Shown: positions 33,306-44,923 of the stretch, in pieces
Position numbering within the stretch: position 1 is the first letter of the stretch
Layout: every line of letters begins with the position of its first letter
Assembly: GCF_000011385.1 (NCBI RefSeq)
Contig: NC_005125.1
Location: 310,001 to 374,000 of the forward strand
DNA: 64,000 bases
Direction of reading: 5' to 3'
DNA from: Gloeobacter violaceus PCC 7421
GTDB lineage: Bacteria > Cyanobacteriota > Cyanobacteriia > Gloeobacterales > Gloeobacteraceae
The notes under the pieces: model-generated
Databases searched by the model: none
What the model saw: the letters and a program-made list of their open reading frames with translations, nothing else
What the model was told of the DNA's origin: nothing
Translations under genes and position numbers: made by a program

Positions 33306-33364
33306 AGAATGACCGGCGAGGGGGCGACACGTGCGCACCGACCACATCTTTTACAGACTCTTCT
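33306..33364 (+). pseudogene. 5' remnant of a DUF2887 nuclease gene
   Basis: GTG at 33331 begins VRTDHIFYRLFFA, matching the first residues of the nuclease at 63032 (VRTDHIFYKLFQA). The upstream CCGGCGAGGGGGCGA is also shared with that gene. Homology stops after about 11 codons and joins the conserved upstream region of an Uma2 gene. It is a mosaic junction. Confidence 0.75.
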
Positions 33365-33426
33365 TCGCAAGTCGCAGCAAAGCGGGGCCGTGGCGGAAAA
33401 TCCGGTCCGCCGCAGCCGCCGCTAAG

Positions 33427-34263
33427 ATGGTGAGCACAGGTTCACAGGTGTACGCCATGATCCTCTCCACAGAACCGCTCGTCTACCCCGATTGCGATGG
33501 CCTGCCCATGTCCGACAACACCGAGCAGTTCCGCTGGATCGTCTACATCAAAGAAGGCCTGGAGTGGCTGTTCGCGGACGCTCCCGACGTGTTCGTAGCT
33601 GGGGATTTGCTGTGGTACCCGCTAGAAGGGGACAACAAGACCCGGCAGGCTCCCGACGCGCTGGTCGCCTTCGGCCGTCCCAAGGGCAGGCGCGGCAGCT
33701 ACCGGCAGTGGCTCGAAGCGGGCATCGCCCCGCAGGTGGTCTTCGAGGTGCTCTCCCCCGGCAACAGCGTCCGGGAGATGACGCGCAAGTTCGCCTTCTA
33801 CCAGCGCTTTGGTGTCGAGGAGTATTACCTATACGATCCCGAGGCGGGTGCCCTCGACGGCTACGTGCGCCGGGGCGGAGTGCTGGAGGGCATCGAGTCG
33901 ATGTCAGGGTGGGTGAGCCCCAGGTTGGGGGTGCGCTTCGATGTGGATGCCGGGGGCCAGTTGCAGATGTGGCGGCCGGACGGCACGCCGTTCGAGAGCT
34001 ATGGAGAAATCGCCGCCCGCGCCGAGCAGGAGCGCCAACGCGCCGAGCAGGCCGAGCAACGCGCCGAGCAGGCCGAATGGAGGAAAGCATTATCTCTGGT
34101 GCTACGGCTGCTCGCCCGGCAGGTCGGTCCCCTGGAGCCGGGGGTGAACGAACGCATCGGCGGGCTCTCGGACGAGGGGCTCGATGCCCTGGCCGAGGCA
34201 TTGCTGGACTTCGGCTCCGCCGCCGAGCTGCACAACTGGCTCGACGGCCGGGTGCCGGGTTGA
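33427..34263 (+). CDS. Uma2-family endonuclease with coiled coil and DUF4351-like tail
   Basis: A 278-residue near-copy of the genes at 7622 and 16582. The coil is shorter (about two repeat units fewer). Core APDALVAFGRPKGRRG, VVFEVLSPGNSVREMTRKF; tail VGPLEPGVNERIGGLSDEG...ELHNWLDGR. The frame is open from 33331, where it fuses to the DUF2887 remnant; ATG 33427 or 33460 are the likely starts by comparison. It converges 15 bp from the TBDR stop. Confidence 0.86.
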   Translation: MVSTGSQVYAMILSTEPLVYPDCDGLPMSDNTEQFRWIVYIKEGLEWLFADAPDVFVAGDLLWYPLEGDNKTRQAPDALVAFGRPKGRRGSYRQWLEAGIAPQVVFEVLSPGNSVREMTRKFAFYQRFGVEEYYLYDPEAGALDGYVRRGGVLEGIESMSGWVSPRLGVRFDVDAGGQLQMWRPDGTPFESYGEIAARAEQERQRAEQAEQRAEQAEWRKALSLVLRLLARQVGPLEPGVNERIGGLSDEGLDALAEALLDFGSAAELHNWLDGRVPG

Positions 34264-34278: not shown

Positions 34279-36490
34279 TCAAAAGCGCACTTCGAGGGTG
34301 CCCTGCACCGTGAAGGGTGCCCCCGGGTAGATGGCGGTGCGGAAGTTGGCCGCCTCGATGTATTGCGCATTCAGCAGGTTCTTGAAGTTGATCGCCGCGT
34401 TGAGCGAACCACGACGGTAATAGAGCGCTGCATCGACGCGCGTGTAGCCGGGTACCGAGTAGCTGTTGTCCAGATCGCCAAGGCGCTCACCGACCATGAA
34501 CACCCCCGCTCCTGCCCCCCAGCCTTCCAGTGCTCCCTCCCCAATTCGATAGGCAGTCCAGAAGCTGCCGCCGTGCAGCGGGGTGGTGGGCAGGCGGTTG
34601 CCCACAGGGAAAGTGTTGTCGCGGCTGATCCGGGCGTCGGTGTAAGCGTAAGAAGCAACCACGTTCCAACCCGGCAGAAGCTCGCCCGAGACGTCCAACT
34701 CGACGCCTTGGCTTTCTTGCTCGCCCACCTGAATCGAAAAGCGAGGGTTGGCGGGGTCGGCAGTGACGACGTTGGTTTTGGCAATCTTGAACAGGGCAAG
34801 GTTGGCGAACAGGCGGTTGGCGAGCAGGTCGGCCTTGGCGCCGAGTTCGAAGCCGGTGCCGCGGGTGGGCAAAAAAGGCGTCCCCGTGGTGCTCAAGCCG
34901 CTGCTAGGTGCGAAGGACTGGTTGAAGTTGGCAAAGAGCGAGACGTTGGATGCGGGTTTGTACAGCAGACCGACGCGCGGCGAGAAAGCCTGTCCTTCCG
35001 AGGGACTGACATCGCCCGTCTGGAGATCCGTAAACGGCGCGGAGACGGTGTCGTAACGACCGCCGAGCACCAGCTTAAGGTTGTCTGAAAAAGAAATCTG
35101 GTCTTGGAGGTAAACCCCGAAACTGCTGGTGGTGATGATGCCCACGAAAACCGAAGAACCCGGGGGGGACTCGAATACGTAGGGCGGGGGCTGGTAGATG
35201 TCGATGACATTCGCGAAGCCGAAGAAGGCGTCAAAGCTTTGGGCAAATTTGCCCAGTTCGAGGCCGAAAAGGACCGTGTGGTCAATAGAGCCTGTCCTTG
35301 GTTTCCAAATCAGGTCGTTCTGAAATGTGACGCTTTCGGTATAACCATACCCCCGCTGGTTTGCCAGTAGCAAAGAGCGGTTGTCCGGCAGCAGTTCCCC
35401 AGCAGAAAAGAGCGATGGGTAGGATTCGAGATAGCTCGTGTACCGGCCCCCGCTGCGCATCGTCAGATTCTCCGCAAACCGGTGCTCCAGCAGCGCAGTC
35501 ACCCGCGTCACGTTCCCGGAAATCAAGCCCTTGGGATCTGCGAAGAGTCGGTTGTAAGGCACCGGTGCCACGCCGTTTCCCACCGCGAAAAGGCCCTGAT
35601 CGAAGGGGCGGTTGTCGCGGGTGTGCTCCACCTCAAAGGTCAGCTTCGTCTCCGGACCCACCTTCCACTCCAGCACCGGCGCGAAAAACACCCGCCGGCC
35701 CTGGGTGCCACGAAAACTGTTGGCGTCCTCGTAGGCGACATTCAGCCGGTAAGCTAGGTTTCCATCCGAGGTGAGCGGACCGGACAGGTCCACCGTGGTG
35801 CGGTAGAAGTCGTAGCTGCCCGCCGTGAAGCCGACCGCGGCGTAGGGGGTGGGCAGTGGCCTTTTTGTGACGTAGTTGATGATGCCGGAGGGTTCGGCCC
35901 GGCCAAAGAGCACCGAGGACGGCCCCTTGAGCACGTCGATGCGCTCGATGTTGGCGCTGTCCACGAAGACGAACGAATCGACGATGCTCGACAAAAAGGC
36001 GTTGGTGTAATTGTTGGAGCGAAAGCCGCGGATATTGAACTGTTCGCCGAAATTGCCGCCGGTGTCCGACAGGTAAACGCCGCTGACGTTGCGTAGGGCG
36101 TCGCGCACGCGCACGGTTCCCTGGTCATCGATACAGTTGTCTGGGAATCACCTGAATCGATTGAGGCGTGTCGAGAATCGGGGTGTCGGTCTTTGTCGCA
36201 GTCGAGGAGTTGGAACGGCGGTAAGTGCCGGTGCCGAACACCGTCACCTCGTCGAGGTCTTCGGTGTCCGGTTGGGGGGCAGCCTGGGCCTGGGTTTGGG
36301 GTGGAGTGGCGGGTTGTTGGGCCAGATGGGCGGCACTGGTCGAGACGGAGGGCAACTCGCCCAGGCGGTGCACCGTGGCCTCCGGGGACATGGCTGCCAC
36401 TTGCTGGGCAGGGATGGGACGGGCGCCCAGCAGCAAAAAACTGCTCGCCACCAAAAGGCAGGTCTTGCGGTTGAGCATACAGATCTTCAC
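34279..36490 (-). pseudogene. TonB-dependent siderophore receptor, frameshifted
   Basis: Two frames encode one receptor. Residues 1-121 from GTG 36490 hold the signal peptide, TonB box (DLDEVTVFGTGTYRR) and plug start, ending IPRQLYR and a stop. The rest (RVRDALRNVSGVYL to PGAPFTVQGTLEVRF) continues in another frame from about 36130. One extra base, the A at plus-strand 36133, explains the break: without it the reading is RQLIDDQGTVRVRD. An IS256-family element is inserted 18 bp upstream of the start and a MITE further up. It may be inactive or a sequencing error may exist; the IS makes loss likely. It is paralogous to 18649-20844. Confidence 0.9.
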
Positions 36491-36508: not shown

Positions 36509-37831
36509 GGGTCTGTAAAGTAAATTGTGTAAGTGGTCTCAGCAAAGAAAGTACAATACTCTCTCAGGCAGGAGGAGCTGATGACCATTCGCAAAGAGAT
36601 CCTCGACGAGCTGCTCAAAGACTACGACGGCACCGACCCGCAGACCATTCTTGGCGAGGGCGGTCTGCTCAAACAACTGACCAAGGCGGTCATTGAACGG
36701 GCTCTCGAAGCCGAGCTGGAAACCCACCTCGGCTACAAAAAACACGAAGCCGCCGGCAAGGGCACCGGTAACTCTAGAAACGGCAAAAGTCAGAAGACCC
36801 TCCAGGCCGAATGTGGTGCCGTCGAACTGGCTGTACCGCGCGACCGCAATGCCGAGTTCGAGCCTGTGGTTGTACGCAAGGGCCAGACTCGGCTCGCCGG
36901 GCTCGACGAGAAGATTCTGGCGCTGTACGCAAGAGGAATGACGACCCGAGATATCCAGGCCCAATTACTAGAAATGTACGGAGTCGATGTCTCCTCAACG
37001 CTGATCTCGAACGTCACCGATGCAGTGATGGACGAGGTGCGGCAGTGGCAGAACCGGCCTCTCGAAGCGGTCTACCCAATAGCGTACTTCGACTGTCTAC
37101 ACGTAAAGGTTCGAGATAATGGTCGAGTGGTCAACAAAGCCGTCTACCTGGCTCTGGGCGTTGATATAGAAGGTCAGAAGGAACTGCTGGGTATCTGGCT
37201 GTCAGCTCACGAAGGGGCGAAGTTCTGGTTAGGGATACTGACTGAGTTGAGCAACCGAGGATTGAAGGACATCCTGATTGCCTGTGTGGATGGTTTGACG
37301 GGATTGCCGGAGGCCATCGAGTCAGTTTATCCCGGCTGTCTGGTGCAATTGTGCATGGTGCATATGGTCAGGAACTCGTGCAAATATGTGTCGTGGAAAG
37401 ACCGCAAAGCGTTGTGTGCGGACCTGCGGTCTATCTACAGTGCAGCGACGGAAGATGAAGCGGAGTTGCATCTGGAACTTCTGAGGGAGAAGTGGGATAA
37501 GCCGTATCCGAGTGTCGGTCGGATGTGGCGAGAGAACTGGTCAAGGGTGATACCCATCTTTCGCTTTGGCGAGGACATTCGGAAGGTAATCTACACAACG
37601 AATGCAATCGAGTCATTGAACATGACGATTCGGAAGGTAAGTCGCAATCACCGGATCATGCCGAATGACGAGTCGGTAATGAAGATGGTGTATCTGGCGA
37701 TCCAGAACCAGATGAAGAAGTGGACGATGCCGATTCGAGCCTGGCGTCCTGCGCTGAACCGGTTGATGATTGAATTCGAGGGACGGCTAAAGGTATGACA
37801 AATTCACTTACACAAAATAATTGACAGATCC
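36509..37831 (-). mobile_element. IS256-family insertion sequence (1,323 bp)
   Basis: The ends are imperfect inverted repeats: GGGTCTGTAAAGTAAATTGT at the left and GGATCTGTCAATTATTTTGT at the right (reverse complement), both followed by GTAAGTG. An 8-bp direct repeat CAGTGCGG flanks it at 36501-36508 and 37832-37839, as expected for IS256-type target duplication. It contains one transposase (36581-37798). The intact repeats suggest a recent insertion. It sits 18 bp upstream of the receptor start at 36490 and cuts the promoter off from the gene. Confidence 0.93.
36581..37798 (+). CDS. IS256-family (mutator-type) transposase
   Basis: A 405-residue DDE transposase with GGAGGAG upstream of ATG 36581. 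Features: N-terminal LGYKKHEAAGKGTGNSRNG, the first D in YFDCLHVKVRDNGRVVNKA, the second in ILIACVDGLTGLPEAIESVYPGCLVQLCMVHMVRN (C-x2-H of the family), and the E in YTTNAIESLN. Reading frame is intact from start to stop. The plus-strand orientation is opposite to the receptor. The element is probably still functional. Confidence 0.94.
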   Translation: MTIRKEILDELLKDYDGTDPQTILGEGGLLKQLTKAVIERALEAELETHLGYKKHEAAGKGTGNSRNGKSQKTLQAECGAVELAVPRDRNAEFEPVVVRKGQTRLAGLDEKILALYARGMTTRDIQAQLLEMYGVDVSSTLISNVTDAVMDEVRQWQNRPLEAVYPIAYFDCLHVKVRDNGRVVNKAVYLALGVDIEGQKELLGIWLSAHEGAKFWLGILTELSNRGLKDILIACVDGLTGLPEAIESVYPGCLVQLCMVHMVRNSCKYVSWKDRKALCADLRSIYSAATEDEAELHLELLREKWDKPYPSVGRMWRENWSRVIPIFRFGEDIRKVIYTTNAIESLNMTIRKVSRNHRIMPNDESVMKMVYLAIQNQMKKWTMPIRAWRPALNRLMIEFEGRLKV

Positions 37832-37940: not shown

Positions 37941-38050
37941 TATTGCAATTGCTGACCCCTGCGCGCACCGAACCGCAGCCGCTGCAACCCATGGCACACC
38001 CGCCGCTAATCCCGAATATTGCAAGCGTCTGTCCATTCCGTTGCACCTTT

Positions 38051-38099
38051 ATTGAGAGTCGTTCTTAGCAAAGTACCGGAATGCCGACGCCTTTGTGAA
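38051..38099 (-). promoter_or_regulatory. Promoter and operator, AraC-linked, now separated from its TBDR
   Basis: On the minus strand TTCACA (38099-38094), 18 bp, TACTTT (38075-38070), and the dyad-like ATTGAGAGTCGTTCTTAGC (plus, 38051-38069). It is a near-copy of 20988-21036. It would drive the receptor at 34279-36490, but the MITE and the IS now lie between. Confidence 0.6.
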
Positions 38100-38118
38100 G
38101 CACAAAGCGATGGTTGAA

Positions 38119-38155
38119 CGGATTTTTTTGAGGGCTGGGCGGATTTTTTTGAGGG
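38119..38155 (-). promoter_or_regulatory. Tandem 21-bp repeats, likely AraC-regulator binding site
   Basis: A perfect 16-bp unit CGGATTTTTTTGAGGG occurs at 38119-38134 and 38140-38155, 21 bp apart. It lies 20 bp upstream of the -35, in the position of the repeats at 21046-21088, although the unit sequence has diverged. Confidence 0.65.
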
Positions 38156-38288
38156 CAAAGCAAGTGCTTTGAAAGCCGTTTGTCACCGGCAATCCCGCCA
38201 CTCTTCCCAGCACCGATCGGGTTGCCGACGGATGCAACGACAACCCACCCGTCCCGGGTGGCCGCTTGCAATCTTTACAAACGGACGA

Positions 38289-39272
38289 TTACATCGGTTC
38301 TTTCGTGTAGTCTTTGGGATTGACCCCAAACCGCTTGCGAAACGCCTCAGCAAAATACCCACGATCAGCGAAGCCTACCGCCCGCATCACCTCGGCCACG
38401 CTCGTCTTGCCCGACAGCAGCAACTGGCGCGCCTGCTCCAGCCGATAGTCGCGCAAATAACCGAACACCGTCTTACCGAATACCCGCCGGAACCCGCCCT
38501 TGAGCAAAAAATCGTTCAACTCCACCTGCCGTGCCAGTTCGACCAATGAAAGCGGCCGATCCAAATTCTGGAGTACAATTTCGCGGGCGCGACAGATGCG
38601 ATCGACATAATCAGGCTCCAGATTGTGCAGCGCTCGCCGTCCCCGCTGCACCTCGCACTCCTGCTCCAAGACCAGCGCAGCCACCTCCAGCGCCTTGCCT
38701 TCCAGGTACATGCGCTTGGCGAGGCCCAAGTACGGACAGCGGACGATTTGCCAAAGCACCCGCTGCATGGCAGGCGAGATCGTTCCCACGCGGGTGTAGT
38801 ACTGCTGGTCCGGCTTGCAAATCAAGTGCTTGAACTCCGGCGGCAGTTCACCATTCCTACCGACGAATGACATTAACACTTCCGACTGCATCGAGATATA
38901 TACTTCTAAAATGTGGTATCGATCCGGGCAAATGGTTGTTCCCTTGGGGGCCAGACCGCTGCCGTAAAGGGCGTATTCCAGATTGCCCACCTCGGTGCAG
39001 GCGTCCTGGTGCTCCCCCGATAGGTGGAAATGACAAGACAGCCAGCTCTCCTGTTCCGCATAAGCGAATTCCCAGCGATCGCACAGTCGACAATCGAGGA
39101 GGGTTAATTCCAACCCCTCGCGCAGTTCAATATTCCGGTAAAAACCGTTGGCCAACCACGGCGGATAGTGGAGCGACAGATCCAGTTCGTCTTGCGGGTC
39201 TGGGCATTGTGACTGTGCAAGAAGCTCTTCGTCCAAATCGGCGGAGGCTTGCTCGGACATGGAAATAGTCAC
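38289..39272 (-). CDS. AraC-family (PchR-like) transcriptional regulator
   Basis: A 327-residue paralogue of 21223-22194: start GTG with AAGGA upstream (MTISMSEQASADLDEELLAQ), sensing domain, and HTH pair RICRAREIVLQNLDRPLSLVELARQVELNDFLLKGGFRRVFGKTVFGYLRDYRLEQARQLL and VMRAVGFADRGYFAEAFRKRFGV. It precedes the promoter and the frameshifted receptor 34279-36490 and probably regulated it; the regulator itself looks intact. Confidence 0.92.
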   Translation of the reverse strand: MTISMSEQASADLDEELLAQSQCPDPQDELDLSLHYPPWLANGFYRNIELREGLELTLLDCRLCDRWEFAYAEQESWLSCHFHLSGEHQDACTEVGNLEYALYGSGLAPKGTTICPDRYHILEVYISMQSEVLMSFVGRNGELPPEFKHLICKPDQQYYTRVGTISPAMQRVLWQIVRCPYLGLAKRMYLEGKALEVAALVLEQECEVQRGRRALHNLEPDYVDRICRAREIVLQNLDRPLSLVELARQVELNDFLLKGGFRRVFGKTVFGYLRDYRLEQARQLLLSGKTSVAEVMRAVGFADRGYFAEAFRKRFGVNPKDYTKEPM

Positions 39273-39335
39273 GGCGACATGTCCTTGGATTAGAGAAACA
39301 GCTTATCAAAAGATGATTTCATTAGTGATTTTACT

Positions 39336-39362
39336 GTACTGGGCATTCAGCAGGTTCTTGAA
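39336..39362 (-). pseudogene. Micro-remnant of a TBDR C-terminal region
   Basis: The minus strand encodes FKNLLNAQY, identical to residues near the C-terminus of the receptor at 34279-36490. Flanking sequence does not match. With the other tail fragments, it supports repeated recombination at this receptor segment. Nine codons is little evidence on its own. Confidence 0.5.
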
Positions 39363-39467
39363 AAGGAACGTTTCCTTTGCCAGGATCGTTGCAGCGCGAC
39401 GCCCTGCGGCAGGCTGCCTGCAAAAAGATTTGCATGGTGAGGAACGCGAAGCCCTGCGACTGGTCAC

Positions 39468-39500
39468 AAGAAAAGTGGACAGGATCATTTTCCTGTCCAC
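39468..39500 (-). terminator. Intrinsic terminator after the TIGR03118-like gene
   Basis: A perfect 10-bp stem, GTGGACAGGA (39475-39484) against TCCTGTCCAC (39491-39500), with a 6-base loop. On the minus strand it is followed by TTTTCTT. It lies 27 bp after the stop of the gene at 39528-40742. Confidence 0.8.
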
Positions 39501-39527
39501 GGCGGGGTTGAACGATTGCTGAGGCGG

Positions 39528-40742
39528 TCAGGCGCCGCCTGCGGTGCAAGACACCGCGTTGAGGCTGCCAAATAGACCGTCCTGCTCGTCGTTAGGTCCG
39601 GCGGCAAAGTAAAGGTAGTTCGCTCGACCCAGTGATTCGCCGTTGCCGAAGGTCAATCCCCACAGACCGTCAACTTTGATCGACTGACGGTCCGGCCCGC
39701 TCAAGTAACCCACCTGTTGGCCGCTTTGGCGGTCGAAGGCGACGATCGTACCGTCGCCGAAGTTGCCCACCAGCAACGCGCCGCTGAGGCTGCCGAAGTC
39801 CTCCGGGGCGATGGCCAGCCCCCAGGGGGCGTTGAGGCGCTCGCTGTGCTCCAGCGTGCGCAGATACTGACCGCGGGGGGTAAAGACCGCCACGTACCCC
39901 AGGCCGGGGCCTTGCTCCTCGGTGTTCGGATCTTCGGTAGTCTTGGCGTAGGTCACATACACCCGCTCGCCCAAAAACTGGACGTTGAACGGCGCGTACT
40001 CGGCTGGGACCGCCTCCGGGTGGGCGAAGGGCTCGATCCAACCCTGGGTGGTGGTCCGAATCAGCGGAACGGGCCGGAAGGCGCCGTCGTAGACTTCGAT
40101 GCGCCCCTGGGCAAAGTTGGCGGCGTACAGGCGGTTGCCCCTCGGGTAGGGAGTCACCGCCAATCCCTTGTAGATGGCCCCTTGCTGTGATTTGTCCACC
40201 ACCAGCACCGAGCGGGTCATCCGCTCGACCGAGCCGTCCGGGTTGGTTCGCTCCGCCCAACCGGAGAGGGTGCCGTCCTCGGTCACCCACAGGAAGCGGC
40301 TGGGTGCGGTGATCCCCTCGCCGGAGACGACAAAGTCCGTATCCGAGCCGCTGAAGACCTGGCCGGTGGGCGTGGCGGTCGTGCCCTCGGCGGCGAGCGG
40401 CGGCGGCGCTACGGTCACGAATTTCAGATCGTCCTGGTAGAGCGGTGTGCTGTCCGTGTCGCCGACATAGGTCGTGGCAGTGCCGGTTTCGGTGTTGGCC
40501 ACCCAGAAATGGCCCCCGAGCCCGGCCGGCCGCAGCGACAGACCCCAGGCGTTGCGCACCAGCGGATCGACAATCTGCGGCGCGAAGGCCGAGCTGTTGG
40601 ACACCAGATTGCGCTGGGCATAGCAACTGGCGTCGGTCGGCCCGGCCAGAGCCGGACCGGACATCAAGCCCACCCCCAACACCACCCACGGCCAGATGCA
40701 CGTGCGACCGGACTGGCTCAGACGGTCCATTAGACTCCCCAT
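39528..40742 (-). CDS. Secreted TIGR03118-family protein (beta-propeller-like)
   Basis: A 404-residue protein from ATG 40742 (GGAGGAG upstream); the longer frame overlaps the promoter at 40854. Signal peptide CIWPWVVLGVGLMSGPALAG. The mature part has NLVSNSSAFAPQIVDPLVRNAWGLSLRP, GHFWVANTETGTATTY, GWIEPFAHPEAVPAEYAPFNVQFLG, LNAPWGLAIAPEDFGSLSGALLVGNFGDGTIVAFD and GLWGLTFGNGESLG, the hallmarks of TIGR03118, whose function is unknown. The shared-type promoter upstream and the terminator downstream define a likely iron-regulated unit. Confidence 0.87.
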   Translation of the reverse strand: MGSLMDRLSQSGRTCIWPWVVLGVGLMSGPALAGPTDASCYAQRNLVSNSSAFAPQIVDPLVRNAWGLSLRPAGLGGHFWVANTETGTATTYVGDTDSTPLYQDDLKFVTVAPPPLAAEGTTATPTGQVFSGSDTDFVVSGEGITAPSRFLWVTEDGTLSGWAERTNPDGSVERMTRSVLVVDKSQQGAIYKGLAVTPYPRGNRLYAANFAQGRIEVYDGAFRPVPLIRTTTQGWIEPFAHPEAVPAEYAPFNVQFLGERVYVTYAKTTEDPNTEEQGPGLGYVAVFTPRGQYLRTLEHSERLNAPWGLAIAPEDFGSLSGALLVGNFGDGTIVAFDRQSGQQVGYLSGPDRQSIKVDGLWGLTFGNGESLGRANYLYFAAGPNDEQDGLFGSLNAVSCTAGGA

Positions 40743-40853
40743 GGTTCTCCTCCAGACTGAATCGATATAGAAATGACCGGCGCAGAACCGCCCTGCAGGC
40801 ATCCACCCGTTCTGCCGATCGCCCGCAGGCGGCGGACCTAAGCTCGCGATCGC

Positions 40854-40883
40854 AGAGTAAATTACTTGCATATCTTTGTCAAT
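40854..40883 (-). promoter_or_regulatory. Shared-type promoter/operator for the TIGR03118-like gene
   Basis: On the minus strand TTGACA (40882-40877), 17 bp, TACTCT (40859-40854), with dyad ATTGACAAAGATATGCAAG. It overlaps the stop codon of the upstream small gene. Confidence 0.75.
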
Positions 40884-41241
40884 AACGATGGTAGGCCCGA
40901 TCGTTCGCAAGCGGCCCGGGTACTTGCTCTGGGAGCCCTGGGCCATCTGCCGTACCGGGATTGCCAGTGTGCAAGTACGCACGAACGGCCGCCGCCGTCG
41001 GCGCATCCAATGCCATGGCGGCAGGTCGGGACATCGCCAATGGTAGAGAGGGCGGAGCGTCACCTGGGTAGTGGAAGCGGAGCGCGGACAACCCGGGCCG
41101 GCCGATGCCGGATGCGAGCGCTGCCGGCTGGCGAGGGAGATTCATGGCACTGGCCAAACCCAGTGCCGCCAATCCGAGCAAGCTCAAACTGCTCAATGCG
41201 GCAAGAGTCTTGCTCAAGGCACTATTGTCGACGCTCTCCAC
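40879..41241 (-). CDS. Small membrane-anchored or secreted protein, unknown
   Basis: A 120-residue protein from GTG 41241 with GGAGG 9 bp upstream; GTG 41265 is an alternative. An N-terminal hydrophobic segment (LAALSSLSLLGLAALGLASAM) is followed by a Pro/Ala-rich tail ending NDRAYHRY. No family recognised. Low complexity makes the coding call moderate, but it has its own shared-type promoter at 41337-41366, so transcription here is likely. Small iron-regulated envelope protein is the inference. Confidence 0.5.
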   Translation of the reverse strand: MESVDNSALSKTLAALSSLSLLGLAALGLASAMNLPRQPAALASGIGRPGLSALRFHYPGDAPPSLPLAMSRPAAMALDAPTAAAVRAYLHTGNPGTADGPGLPEQVPGPLANDRAYHRY

Positions 41242-41336
41242 GGCCAAAGACCTCCGCTTGTCCACATCTTAAGAAAAGCGATGGGCAAAGGGATTTGGCC
41301 CATCGCCTACTCATGGCCTTTTATAGACGCGGGAAA

Positions 41337-41366
41337 AGCTTAGCTTTGTTGAAATTAATTGTCAAT
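41337..41366 (-). promoter_or_regulatory. Shared-type promoter/operator for the small protein
   Basis: On the minus strand TTGACA (41365-41360), 17 bp, TAAGCT (41342-41337), with dyad ATTGACAATTAATTTCAAC, one of the closest matches to the consensus in the window. Confidence 0.78.
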
Positions 41367-41485
41367 TATTACGCTTGCATGCTGGATCTTGAATGGCAGT
41401 CACCAGGCATCTCAGATGCGAAGAAGCGGGCAATGCCCAGGAGAAGGCAAGCGATCGAAGTTGAGAACATGCGACGAGGGATGAT

Positions 41486-42049
41486 TTACCCGGCGTGCGC
41501 GGTCGACAGCTTCAGGTCCAGCACCAGGCTGTCGTCGGCCAGGTAGTGTGCCAGGTGAAAGGCCCGCTCCTCCGTCTCCAGCAGCACTTTTTTGAGATGA
41601 TACTCGCTCGCGTAGTCCCCGAGGCTGGCAACCGCTGCGATCTGACGACGCAACTGCTCGATGATCGCCTGCTCAGCTTGCAGGTCGTGAACAATCATCG
41701 TGCGACAGTCAAACACATCGTCGCCTTCCGGCTGGAAACAGGACAGCTCCTGCAGGCGAACCGGCGTGCTCACCGGCACCCCGCCCAATCCGTCGACGCG
41801 CTCGCCCAACTCCTCGGCGTGGCCACGCACCTGATCGGCGTATTCGTCGAAAATCCGGTGCAACTGGCCGAACTCCGTGCCTTCGACTACCCAGTGGTGT
41901 TTCTGATACTGGTGATAAAGGGTGTAGAAACTGGCGAGCAAGTGGTTGAGGCCCTCAGTGACAGGCTCGGTAACGCTGCGATCGAGGCCGACCGGGTTGT
42001 CCTGGACCTGGCCGAAGGCGTGGCGCAACTGATTGCGAAGAGTAACCAT
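41486..42049 (-). CDS. dps: Dps-family ferritin-like protein
   Basis: A 187-residue four-helix protein. The ferroxidase signature is YQKHHWVVEGTEFGQLHRIFDEYADQVRGHAEELGERV (residues about 46-85); later helices include TMIVHDLQAEQAIIEQLRRQI and EERAFHLAHYL. Dps proteins oxidise and store iron and protect DNA. In an iron-uptake region it would handle excess iron or peroxide. It lies 200 bp from a perfect palindrome at 42256-42270. No shared-type promoter is seen, which fits opposite regulation. Confidence 0.93.
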   Translation of the reverse strand: MVTLRNQLRHAFGQVQDNPVGLDRSVTEPVTEGLNHLLASFYTLYHQYQKHHWVVEGTEFGQLHRIFDEYADQVRGHAEELGERVDGLGGVPVSTPVRLQELSCFQPEGDDVFDCRTMIVHDLQAEQAIIEQLRRQIAAVASLGDYASEYHLKKVLLETEERAFHLAHYLADDSLVLDLKLSTAHAG

Positions 42050-42255
42050 GAATTTATCTCGGGAAAACTGACGTATTCATTTTAACAAAGGGTTCTCTAG
42101 ATTTGCCGCCCCTCAATTCAGTAAATGCACTCTCTTAAAATATTATGGCAATAGTCTGCCTTAGCAAGGCGCACTCACTGGAATGATTGGCAAAGTGCCG
42201 GCGGTTCCATCGGTTGCCCTGGAGCATCGATCGATTTTTCAACGGTTAATCGGTA

Positions 42256-42270
42256 TGACAATGATTGTCA
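42256..42270. promoter_or_regulatory. 15-bp perfect palindrome, Fur/PerR-like
   Basis: TGACAATGATTGTCA is a perfect 7-1-7 palindrome upstream of dps, in the gap 42050-42331 that otherwise holds no gene. The design resembles Fur-superfamily boxes. It is 206 bp from the dps start, rather far for a simple promoter operator. Confidence 0.55.
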
Positions 42271-42331
42271 GTGCCAGGCACGGGGCCGCATTCACTGGGC
42301 CTGCTCTATGGGCTCCAGGTCTTCGTTGAAT

Positions 42332-43153
42332 CTACTCCCTGCCCAAGCGGACCAGACTGAGGCGGTAGGCGTTATTCAAAGGCGGCAGCGAGTACAGCAA
42401 CCGCATCAGCAGGGGCACGCGCCGGTGGTACCGCTTGGGAACGTCCCAAAACGTGCAGCTTTCGAGCACCCGGTAACGGCTGTCCCATGACTCGATCGCG
42501 CGGATGTCGCGGATACCCCACTGAAAGCGGGCGTTGTAATAGCGCATCACCTCGTGGCGGTGCTGGTTTTTAACTGCCGAGGGGGCCATCGAGTCGAAGG
42601 CGAGCAAAGCCCCGGCAAAGTGTTCGGCCACCAGGGCCAAAAATTGGCGCACCTGCGCCTCGCTCAGATAAATCAGCACCGCCTCGGCCACGAAGAGCAC
42701 GGGCCTTGGCCCCGCGCTATTGACAATTTCTACCCAAGCGGGATCCAGGGCGGAGGCGGCGATGAACCGGCGGCGGTCGGTGGGTTCAAAAAAGCGCCCT
42801 CGCAGCGCCATCGCGTCTGGTAAGTCGAGGTCAAACCAGAGCACCCGGCCGTTGTCGACCCGCTCGAAGCGCGTGTTGAGCCCGCAGCCGATTTCGACGA
42901 CGATCCCATCCGGGTGGCCGGCCAGAAAGGCGCTCACCCACCGATCAAAGAGCCACCCCCGCATGCAGCAGCCCATCTGGGTGCCTTCGGCCTTGGCCAA
43001 CTTGCTGAAGTCGTAGTCGATTTGTCCGAGAATCTCGGCGGATTTGGGATCGCGGAGGATCGGGTCGGGCTGGTTGTTCTCTGCCGCCCGCGCCCAAAGG
43101 GGAATGAGCAAGGTCTCCTGGACTGCTCCGAGTTGCACTTTTGTCGTTGGCAT
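42332..43153 (-). CDS. LCM-family SAM methyltransferase
   Basis: A 273-residue protein from ATG 43153 (GGAGAAG upstream): VQETLLIPLWARAAEN, VVEIGCGLNTRFERVDNGRVLWFDLDLPDAM (SAM-binding), VLFVAEAVLIYLSEAQVRQFL, and C-terminal RVPLLMRLLYSLPPLNNAYRLSLVRL. It is the same family as 15650-16435, of tetracenomycin-polyketide-like carboxyl/O-methyltransferase type. A shared-type promoter lies about 200 bp upstream. Substrate unknown. Confidence 0.88.
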   Translation of the reverse strand: MPTTKVQLGAVQETLLIPLWARAAENNQPDPILRDPKSAEILGQIDYDFSKLAKAEGTQMGCCMRGWLFDRWVSAFLAGHPDGIVVEIGCGLNTRFERVDNGRVLWFDLDLPDAMALRGRFFEPTDRRRFIAASALDPAWVEIVNSAGPRPVLFVAEAVLIYLSEAQVRQFLALVAEHFAGALLAFDSMAPSAVKNQHRHEVMRYYNARFQWGIRDIRAIESWDSRYRVLESCTFWDVPKRYHRRVPLLMRLLYSLPPLNNAYRLSLVRLGRE

Positions 43154-43356
43154 CGCTGCTTCTCCGTCTATGGCTCGACTGTTAGGCCAGGTAATTGCAA
43201 CAATTCTCAACAAGTCTTGAGCATTGGGACAGACCGGACTGGCTTCAACGAGCGCATTCCCCGCTGCCGGCCTGCAATGTTCATAAGAAATGCGGGCAAG
43301 GAGCAGCAGTAACCACTTCCCTTGCCCACACACAGCTTTTTCAAGACGATGACAAC

Positions 43357-43386
43357 AGACTAAGCCTATCGCTAAATAATGTCAAT
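43357..43386 (-). promoter_or_regulatory. Shared-type promoter/operator for the LCM methyltransferase
   Basis: On the minus strand TTGACA (43385-43380), 17 bp, TAGTCT (43362-43357), with ATTGACATTATTTAGCGAT. The leader to 43153 is about 195 bp and contains no evident structure. It overlaps the end of the truncated TBDR frame. Confidence 0.7.
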
Positions 43387-43794
43387 AACTGAAGGCGTAA
43401 GCCTAGACAAGCCAAGCCGGTTGCTCCAGGACCGGCAGCGCAAGCAGAACAAACAACAACATTGCTTTTCTAACGGGTGGAGGCGGGGGATCACCTGGAT
43501 CGACTGGGGGGTGAGCAGCAAAGGCGTATCTGTCTTGGTGCCGGAGGTGGCGTTCTTGCGCCGGTACCCGCCGCTGCCGAACACCGTCACCTCGTCGAGT
43601 TCCTCGCCGTCGTCCGGTTGGGGAACGGTCTGGACCTGGGCCTGGGGTTCCACCTGGGCGAGGGGGGCGGCGTGGGTCGCCGGCCAATCCAGCTGCTGCA
43701 GGCGCCTCGCTTCTTGGGCCTCTTCGGCGCAGGCGACCGGGGCGAGCACCAGGCCCAGACAACCGCCAAGGACAAAAGGACGCGGGTCGTTCAC
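43372..43794 (-). pseudogene. TBDR N-terminal stub, rest deleted
   Basis: From GTG 43794 the frame encodes a signal peptide (FVLGGCLGLVLAPVACAEE), a Pro/Gln linker, a TonB box (ELDEVTVFGSGGYRR) and the plug start LLLTPQSIQVIPR, then leaves the family at about 43488. The remaining 40 or so codons are unrelated and run into the next promoter. A deletion removed some 600 residues. The promoter at 43983-44012 is intact, so a short secreted peptide might still be made. Confidence 0.85.
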
Positions 43795-44149: not shown

Positions 44150-44923
44150 ATGGTGAGCACAGGTTCACAGGTGTACGCCATGGTTGTTTCCACAGAACCG
44201 GTCGTCTACCCGGACTGCGATGGCCTGCCCATGTCCGACAACACCGAGCAGTTTCGCTGGATCGTCTATATCAAAGAGGGACTGGAGTGGCTGTTTGTGG
44301 AGGATCCCGATGTCTTCGTAGCTGGAGATTTGCTCTGGTACCCGCTTGAAGGAGACAACAAGACCCGGCAGGCTCCCGACACTCTGGTGGTTTTCGGCCG
44401 TCCCAAGGGCAGGCGCGGCAGCTACCGGCAGTGGCTCGAAGCGGGCGTGCCCCCGCAGGTAGTCTTCGAGGTGCTCTCCCCCGGCAACACTGTCCGGGAG
44501 ATGACGCGCAAGTTCGCCTTTTACCAGCGCTTCGATGTCGAAGAGTACTACATATACGATCCCGAAGCGGGTGCACTGGATGGCTACGTGCGCCGGGGCG
44601 GGGTGCTGGAGGCGGTCGAGCCGATGGCGGGTTGGGTGAGCCCCGGGTTGGGGGTGCGCTTCGGTGTGGATGCCGAAGGCCAGTTGCAGATGTGGCGGCC
44701 GGACGGCGCGCCGTTCGAGAGCTATGTAGAAATCGCCGCCCGCGCCGAGCAGGAGCGCCAGCGCGCCGAGCAGGCCGAGCAACGCGCCGAGCAGGCCGAG
44801 CAAAGAGCGGACCAGGCCGAACAACGCGCCGAGCAGGCCGAGCAAAGAGCGGAGCAGGAGCGATTAAAAGCCGAGAGGCTTGCAGAGAAACTGCGGAAAC
44901 TAGGAATTGAGCCCCCGGCATAG
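44150..44923 (+). CDS. Uma2-family endonuclease with long coiled coil, no DUF4351 tail
   Basis: A 257-residue protein. Uma2 core (APDTLVVFGRPKGRRG, VVFEVLSPGNTVREMTRKF, YYIYDPEAG) as in the 7622 copy, then about nine AEQAEQRAEQ-type units (44744-44880) and the alternative end KLRKLGIEPPA, shared in style with 3212 and 48626. So one core carries two types of tail among paralogues. No TBDR end converges here. Confidence 0.86.
   Translation: MVSTGSQVYAMVVSTEPVVYPDCDGLPMSDNTEQFRWIVYIKEGLEWLFVEDPDVFVAGDLLWYPLEGDNKTRQAPDTLVVFGRPKGRRGSYRQWLEAGVPPQVVFEVLSPGNTVREMTRKFAFYQRFDVEEYYIYDPEAGALDGYVRRGGVLEAVEPMAGWVSPGLGVRFGVDAEGQLQMWRPDGAPFESYVEIAARAEQERQRAEQAEQRAEQAEQRADQAEQRAEQAEQRAEQERLKAERLAEKLRKLGIEPPA
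44744..44880 (+). repeat. Tandem coding repeats (GCCGAGCAG units)
   Basis: Repeats of about 21 bp (GCCGAGCAGGCCGAGCAACGC) encode AEQAEQR heptads. Shorter arrays of the same units occur at 8213-8320, 17176-17280 and 34019-34080. Copy number differs between paralogues, as expected for slippage or unequal exchange. Confidence 0.8.

Follow-up and report, generated by a model that had tools for sequence, protein, structure and literature searches.

Organization of the locus

We examined a 64,000-nucleotide stretch of the Gloeobacter violaceus PCC 7421 genome (contig NC_005125.1, positions 310,001 to 374,000; G000:C1:310001-374000 in our numbering of genomes), hereafter the window, and concentrated on a minus-strand region that carries a gene for a TIGR03118 family protein and, next to it, a predicted small RNA (sRNA) which we call sRNA-1. 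Along the minus strand the order is a dps gene, a TTGACA promoter at 41365, a 120-codon open reading frame (ORF), a second TTGACA promoter at 40882, the TIGR03118 gene, and a terminator at 39500-39475 (Table 1). The original prediction, made from the DNA sequence alone, described two consecutive genes here, each with an iron-type promoter and the second ending in a strong terminator. Both promoters are present, as is the terminator behind the TIGR03118 gene, a 10-bp stem followed by TTTTCTT (shuffle z -3.8). The family assignment was borne out at 569 bits against a cut-off of 79.95, and the neighbor that had been called unrecognizable is so: the 120-codon ORF has no Pfam match, and a 128-codon reading has neither a Pfam nor an NCBIfam match.

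The proposed layout of two genes, each behind its own promoter, holds for the promoters and fails in its simplest anatomy, as a second strong terminator (shuffle z -4.6), missed by the original prediction, separates the first promoter from the 120-codon ORF. With this terminator in between, the first promoter does not have the ORF as its main product; judged from the sequence, it most likely yields a regulatory RNA of about 60 nt instead of a protein message. This predicted length follows from the positions of the promoter and the strong hairpin. Searches against Rfam 15 returned 0 matches at the gathering threshold over the window and 0 at E<=10 over 38200-42700.

Table 1. Features of the studied region, in window coordinates.
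Feature	Position	Strand	Description	Basis
TIGR03118 terminator	39475..39500	-	Intrinsic terminator behind the TIGR03118 gene	Folding
TIGR03118 gene	39528..40742	-	TIGR03118 (PEPCTERM_chp_1) family protein	569 bits
Second promoter	40854..40882	-	TTGACA, spacer 17, TACTCT, before TIGR03118; degenerate Fur box	Box scoring
120-codon ORF	40879..41241	-	GTG start, behind the sRNA-1 terminator; weak constraint, uncertain whether coding	ORF, dN/dS
sRNA-1 terminator	41270..41307	-	Intrinsic; GGCGATGGGC-loop-GCCCATCGC plus TTTTCTT; hairpin 41307-41278	Folding
sRNA-1	41271..41331	-	Predicted RNA, about 60 nt long	Start inferred from -10, end from terminator
sRNA-1 pairing core	41313..41329	-	CGUCUAUAAAAGGCCAU	Complementary to phoX start AUGGCUUUUUCGAGACG with two internal mismatches and one G-U
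sRNA-1 Fur-type box	41347..41365	-	Overlaps -35 (TTGACAATTAATTTCAACA) of the sRNA-1 promoter; kept in G001 and G003	Palindrome scan
dps	41486..42049	-	Dps-type miniferritin; neighbor just upstream of sRNA-1, outside the sRNA unit	Family match
Best Fur-type palindrome of the window	42256..42270	.	TGACAATGATTGTCA, 12/14, dps upstream region	Palindrome scan
sRNA-2	43284..43352	-	Second family member; core CGUCUUGAAAAAG at 43348-43336; terminator GGGCAAGG..CCUUGCCC	R1, R2
sRNA-2 promoter	43357..43385	-	TTGACA, 17-nt spacer, TAGTCT; degenerate Fur box, 9/14	Box scoring

Promoters and Fur-type boxes

The sRNA-1 promoter has its -10 element, TAAGCT, at 41342-41337 after a 17-nt spacer, and it overlaps a Fur-type palindrome (TGACAATTAATTTCA) that matches 11 of the 14 positions of the 7-1-7 arrangement, which we take to be the Fur consensus. 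Such sites are enriched in the window: four score at least 11/14 against 0.3 expected from 20 Markov sequences, and 11 score at least 10/14 against 3.15 expected. We suggest, from sequence, that Fur with iron represses the sRNA-1 promoter. The box at the second promoter is weak, with 9/14 in G. violaceus (under the listing level of the scan), 10 in G001, and 9 in G003, the two latter being genomes of the same genus. Neither promoter was flagged by a plain sigma-70 scan of 38000-43000.

A shared promoter pattern, TTGACANNNNNTNTCAAYA, has eight exact sites in the genome, five of them inside the window and one of these being the sRNA-1 promoter. Allowing one mismatch gives 24 matches versus five for a reversed control, with palindromic sites counted on both strands. 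The three exact sites outside the window lie before a TonB receptor gene, before an ABC ATPase gene followed by a TonB receptor gene, and before a PepSY_TM gene; because of the genes behind such sites, the label "iron-type" is a fair one. No excess of the pattern was found in another genome of the genus, G002 (7 matches versus 9 in the control), which, unlike its genus mates, also yielded no member of the sRNA family described below.

A predicted sRNA family of seven copies in three genomes

Among 39 genomes searched, strong matches to the unit formed by the sRNA-1 promoter and transcript were found in two same-genus genomes, G001 (93%) and G003 (88%), where it is nearly unchanged from the -35 element to the U-tail. 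Relative to G001, the sRNA-1 transcript is 97% identical, the 120-codon ORF is 78% identical, and the TIGR03118 gene is mostly gone, the median over 96-nt windows being 78%. Relative to G003, the transcript is 88% identical and the TIGR03118 gene 95%. The loss in the transcript is mostly due to the 11-nt hairpin loop, which is inverted between G. violaceus (41278-41306) and G003 (G003:C1:105584-105612). Conservation alone is no proof of function, since in the same comparison coding genes contain 96-nt stretches with identities as high as 99-100%.

A promoter search added two copies (G003:C1:3991558 and G001:C30:45348), and five copies align without gaps over 99 columns. We built two covariance models, R1 covering promoter plus RNA and R2 covering the RNA only; on sRNA-1, R2 matches 41333-41270. 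Over 291 genomes of the class, R1 added a second unit in the window, sRNA-2 (43385-43281, E 0.01), and one at G001:C86:3188-3292 (E 0.005). R2, whose training did not include sRNA-2, nonetheless finds it with an E value of 7e-4 in the window and 0.05 in the whole genome. The family thus comprises seven copies at three kinds of site in three genomes: two in G. violaceus, three in G001, and two in G003. The motif CGUCUNNAAAARG is common to all seven, and sRNA-2 keeps this core with a different terminator stem. The sRNA-1 hairpin, being a palindrome, is matched by R2 on its reverse strand too in every one of these genomes. R1 and R2 were run on nine genomes of the order, six of which gave no accepted member, their weak matches being rejected or left unexplained. 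Rejected R2 matches were those in G004 (L278), G007 (L279), and G003 (L289, E 1.2), all overlapping frames of at least 150 codons with no TTGACA within 100 nt upstream, one in G002 (L280) over a 117-aa ORF, and a second in G004 (L284), the last two likewise lacking TTGACA within 100 nt upstream.

Two copies, one each in G001 and G003, lie directly before a gene for a TonB siderophore receptor (TIGR01783, 422 and 425 bits versus a cut-off of 223.5). These receptor copies adjoin a polyketide synthase gene with ketosynthase, acyltransferase, ketoreductase, and carrier domains, and a thioesterase gene. In the window, sRNA-2 stands immediately behind an ORF (43372-43794, minus strand) that has its own Fur-type promoter (44011) and by eye resembles the N-terminal piece of a TonB receptor, cut after SIQVIPR, with no Pfam match.

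The start of phoX as predicted target

The exact complement of the core, CYTTTTNNAGACG, occurs at 9, 13, and 11 sites in G. violaceus, G003, and G001, counts that include the sRNA genes themselves (2, 2, and 3). We viewed the flanks of 24 of the 26 non-self sites, the other two both being in G003. ATGG precedes one, two, and two of the non-self sites in these genomes, and all five are start codons of phoX genes. The complement of a longer core, ATGGCYTTTTNNAGACG, is expected 0.016-0.017 times per genome under an order-2 Markov model and covers a phoX start codon in all three sRNA-bearing genomes; the longer core itself is found in sRNA-1 and in the G003 receptor copy. Another core site of G. 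violaceus (L298) ends 26 nt ahead of an ATG with AGGAGA.

The target genes match PF05787 over its full length (E 2.2e-84 and 1e-82 for the two types), and their products are related to the solved PhoX structures 3zwu/4a9v. The NC..G motif is kept, with NCAGG aligned to residue 179 of 3zwu, and Cys179 is what we take to be an iron ligand of PhoX. An excerpt from a published study (PMC5454538) states that two iron ions are required by PhoX.

When the 5' part of each sRNA was paired with each phoX start of its own genome, all 12 combinations gave binding energies (dG) of -20.4 to -27.6, with p values of 0 to 0.006 over 1000 letter shuffles of the sRNA part, and they share a register near -6 to +18 of phoX. 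The receptor copy of G003 pairs with phoX by Watson-Crick pairs at 17 of 18 positions, and sRNA-2 reaches the phoX AUG through G-U pairs. An energy scan took in both strands of the window, of the phoX stretch, and of 20 other stretches at even spacing; 23,803 windows remained after dropping nine that cover the sRNA loci's own antisense, and the phoX site came first for sRNA-1 and sRNA-2 jointly. GC-rich sites yield strong pairing energies by themselves. With a mean unpaired probability of 0.54 (0.45 over the whole 160 nt), the phoX site is half open; it uses the arginine codon AGA, which makes up 1.8% of 6,822 arginine codons sampled. Complementarity to the translation start of an iron enzyme is kept between species, with modest energy ranks. 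The case for phoX rests on the exact start-codon register, its presence in all three sRNA genomes, and the sense that the target makes.

A second phoX of G. violaceus (L320, about 5979) is a relic that retains the start and has lost the N-terminal half; its counterparts in G001 and G003 are open frames of 433 codons. The region upstream of phoX contains putative repeats of the Pho-box type.

Relation to IsaR1 and other known systems

Excerpts of published work describe IsaR1, the iron-stress sRNA of cyanobacteria, as 68 nt long (PMC6202907) and as repressing sodB and other iron-demanding genes (PMC11126600), and report for many bacteria an iron-sparing sRNA that is released from Fur (PMC12090762). 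R1 gave matches at E<=0.5 in 30 genomes of the class, and we judged 30 loci by eye: eight are units of other cyanobacteria with the same Fur-type promoter and a core of GTGTTCTCCTCTC or a close variant, which we call IsaR1-like, three are the known Gloeobacter unit, and the remainder were set aside as chance. A G004 locus (L080, G004:C106:48938-49029, minus strand, E 0.12) has a TTGACA box, a hairpin, and a T run without the core, and is possibly another iron-type short RNA, from a related genus; a G043 locus (L089, R1 E 0.33) contains CGTCTATAAAAA and no TTGACA.

A transcript-only model, R3, was built from seven IsaR1-like units and matches 178 of 388 genomes of the class at E<=0.05. Among the matches listed (at least 117 stretches), the IsaR1-like core is carried, among others, by Nostoc, Anabaena, Microcystis, Microcoleus, and Planktothrix. 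From the length, the Fur box, and the spread, we infer that the R3 family is IsaR1. None of the four genomes of the Gloeobacter genus (G000-G003) has an R3 match at E<=0.1, the best values being 0.143 (G003) and 0.93 (G000), both in long open frames without a promoter, and at the seven Gloeobacter sRNA units R3 gives nothing above noise. In the other direction, of 31 IsaR1-like loci only one received a correctly positioned R2 match. An R3 match in G004 (L128, E 9.5e-4) was rejected, as it lies within a 291-codon frame with no TTGACA. Nor did we accept synteny with dps as a sign of kinship with IsaR1, since of 149 loci examined only one has dps close to the IsaR1-like unit.

The Gloeobacter RNA would work like IsaR1, and by the IsaR1-like model Gloeobacter appears to have no credible IsaR1 homologue. 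The two are alike in the iron-type promoter (in sRNA-1 an 11/14 palindrome on the -35 element), a transcript of about 60-70 nt (for Gloeobacter a predicted length), a terminator, and a 5' pairing region, and, going by the excerpts cited (PMC6202907, PMC11126600, PMC12090762), in a predicted lowering of iron-containing proteins. They differ in core sequence, the core taken to be that of IsaR1, GUGUUCUCCUCUC...AAGGAUNGGCA, not being recovered by R3 in the four genomes of the genus, and the transcript-only models do not recognize each other. Moreover, the targets that these excerpts report for IsaR1 are photosynthetic and other iron proteins, whereas the predicted Gloeobacter target is the PhoX start codon, and two Gloeobacter copies lie in the leader position of TonB receptor genes. 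Our literature searches found no paper treating both IsaR1 and Gloeobacter, none combining PhoX, small RNA, iron limitation, and cyanobacteria, and, among the titles, no iron sRNA of Gloeobacter.

RyhB and PrrF are Fur-controlled, iron-sparing sRNAs. The likeness to them is one of logic: loss of iron frees the promoter, and iron enzymes are then shut down by the sRNA. Size and Hfq dependence may differ. Transcription attenuators are known ahead of uptake genes, and the terminator shortly before the receptor Shine-Dalgarno sequence in G001 and G003 resembles them; what differs is that no antiterminator was found and that the Gloeobacter core is conserved independently of the stem.

Proposed mechanism and alternatives

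We consider it fairly probable that sRNA-1 is a Fur-type, iron-sparing sRNA in the manner of IsaR1 and RyhB that blocks translation of phoX. The promoter, the terminator, the family, and the complementarity can be read directly from the DNA, and upon them the mechanism places transcription, control by Fur, pairing in the cell, and repression as presumed steps. With iron replete, Fur-iron would hold the sRNA-1 promoter off. When iron is short, the repression would be lifted and the RNA of about 60 nt made, and its 5' part (5'-CGUCU..AAAARGC[CAU]-3') would pair with the phoX mRNA from about -6 to +18. Pairing at the start would keep ribosomes from loading and so prevent synthesis of a two-iron enzyme under iron scarcity, and sRNA-2 would act likewise. 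Because of the Pho-box-like repeats, phoX may be turned on when phosphate is short, with iron shortage acting as a veto. For the receptor copies in G001 and G003, a read-through fraction could also serve as receptor mRNA; since the Shine-Dalgarno sequence trails the terminator by 9-15 nt, some read-through probably makes receptor mRNA, unless a promoter was missed. We also entertain, with less confidence, a more specific version in which the RNAs are a Gloeobacter-own iron-stress family, of separate origin from IsaR1, that silences PhoX and in which some copies double as siderophore-receptor leaders.

Several points weigh against an sRNA that silences phoX. Transcription and iron control of the sRNA, as well as repression of PhoX by it, are deduced from sequence, and the iron dependence of the short (435-aa) PhoX from homology. 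Covariation gives no support: both partners are altered in one of nine stem pairs, no more than in shuffles. sRNA-2 has a degenerate Fur box (9/14). The core complement CYTTTTNNAGACG shows no bulk excess, reversed controls giving 13, 13, and 9 sites. The energy scan covered 478 kb of the genome, the phoX stretch was deliberately added to the sample, in the joint ranking the phoX site leads the runner-up by just 1 kcal/mol, and its individual ranks are 109 (sRNA-1) and 9 (sRNA-2) of 23,803. The AUG-covering GCCAU is found in only four of the copies, the three of sRNA-1 and one at a receptor gene. Nor are the copies and genomes independent evidence, because each of the three genomes carries two or three similar sRNAs. 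Finally, the U-tract ends only 9 nt (G003) and 15 nt (G001) before the Shine-Dalgarno sequence of the siderophore receptor gene, a spacing that suits a cis-acting leader.

The core counts, the unexceptional energy ranks, and the further core site ahead of an ATG in G. violaceus would all be understandable if the match to phoX were a coincidence and the RNA an iron-regulated sRNA with other targets. We regard this as rather unlikely, given that the complementarity extends through ATGGC at the true start codon in each of the three sRNA genomes against an expectation of 0.016 per genome, that pairs of 17-18 bp are formed with different paralogues, and that the target belongs to an iron-enzyme family. 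Somewhat less likely still is a purely cis-acting role, in which promoter, short leader, and terminator attenuate the downstream gene (the 120-aa ORF, the TonB receptor, or a methyltransferase) and the short RNA is a by-product. Besides the receptor spacing, this reading has in its favor that no other promoter was noticed between terminator and receptor gene, and that the Shine-Dalgarno sequence of the 120-codon ORF (AGCGGAGG) lies about 12 nt past the sRNA-1 terminator. Antiterminator pairing, however, is no better than shuffles in all seven copies (p 0.22-0.96), the downstream genes vary between copies, the stem of the sRNA-2 terminator differs while the core is kept, and that core matches phoX instead. 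A terminated leader that releases an sRNA would fit the Shine-Dalgarno spacing and the antiterminator null result alike.

That the RNA is a true IsaR1 orthologue, strongly diverged, seems to us improbable. The shared architecture of Fur box, terminator, and a length of 60-70 nt speaks for it, as do the recovery of eight IsaR1-like units by the promoter-including model and a gapped alignment that sets TCTATAAAAGG opposite TCTCTAAAGG; the transcript-only tests, however, fail both ways, and the CU-rich GUGUUCUCCUCUC is absent from all seven copies. Most doubtful is the arrangement of the original prediction, in which the mRNA for the 120-aa protein starts at the first promoter and its gene makes up an iron-starvation unit together with TIGR03118. 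The ORF does keep its Shine-Dalgarno sequence and an open frame in all three genomes, and a Fur-like box stands before TIGR03118 in a further genome, G008. Against this, the strong terminator separates promoter and ORF, the ORF diverges fast, with a dN/dS (ratio of nonsynonymous to synonymous rates) of 0.42-0.57, and the TIGR03118 gene of G002 has no such promoter.

If the prediction holds, a connection between iron status and PhoX through an sRNA would provide a genetic mechanism for iron-phosphorus co-limitation, and the phoX prediction is specific to single bases. A primitive cyanobacterium could then spare iron under shortage by means of an sRNA against an iron-requiring phosphatase. Gloeobacter branches near the base of the cyanobacteria, and a separate Gloeobacter solution, if true, would mean that sRNA circuits for iron sparing had more than one evolutionary origin. 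In the excerpt drawn on here, PMC5454538 treats iron-phosphorus co-limitation as a matter of the enzyme's cofactor.

TIGR03118 and neighboring observations

The TIGR03118 gene encodes a full member of its family but is a neighbor of the sRNA and stands outside its unit. The match is unique within the G. violaceus genome, and the family is present in 7 of 59 genomes searched, G. violaceus included. In our literature search one paper names TIGR03118. The original prediction had tied this family to iron starvation; the iron link stands for the region, and that of TIGR03118 itself appears weak, given the 9/14 box and the cases of G002 and G001. The copies elsewhere are divided. In G008, from a different family of the order, the TIGR03118 gene is preceded, at a distance of about 200 nt, by a box like that of the second promoter (TTGACAATTACTTGCA), which is mild support. 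Against a strict link, the G002 gene has other neighbors and no TTGACA, with an 11/14 palindrome-like site about 500 nt upstream before another ORF, and in G001 a match is left only at profile positions 213-335 of 336. Within the available flanks of three further copies, in G005 and G011, Fur boxes number none in G005 and one (10/14) in one G011 stretch. One G011 contig (G011:C186, L025/L028) has a single open frame of 2206 codons with two TIGR03118 domains.

On the other side of sRNA-1, a deletion in G003 joins a methyltransferase gene to the end of dps. Elsewhere in the window, a TonB receptor gene (34279-36114 and 36125-36490, minus strand) apparently has its N-terminal part in another frame, and it adjoins a 421-aa ORF (36533-37798, plus strand) that is transposase-like by eye. 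Two similar plus-strand ORFs (33331-34263 and 44150-44923) flank the iron genes, the first matching Uma2 and DUF4351. Outside the window, another Fur-type promoter (L060, G000:C1:2028859, with L038 and L051) is kept in three genomes and is followed by a hairpin (GGGCGAAGA..TCTTCTCGCCC in G. violaceus). There, a TonB receptor frame starts 119 nt past the promoter, and the element is possibly a second terminated leader or sRNA.

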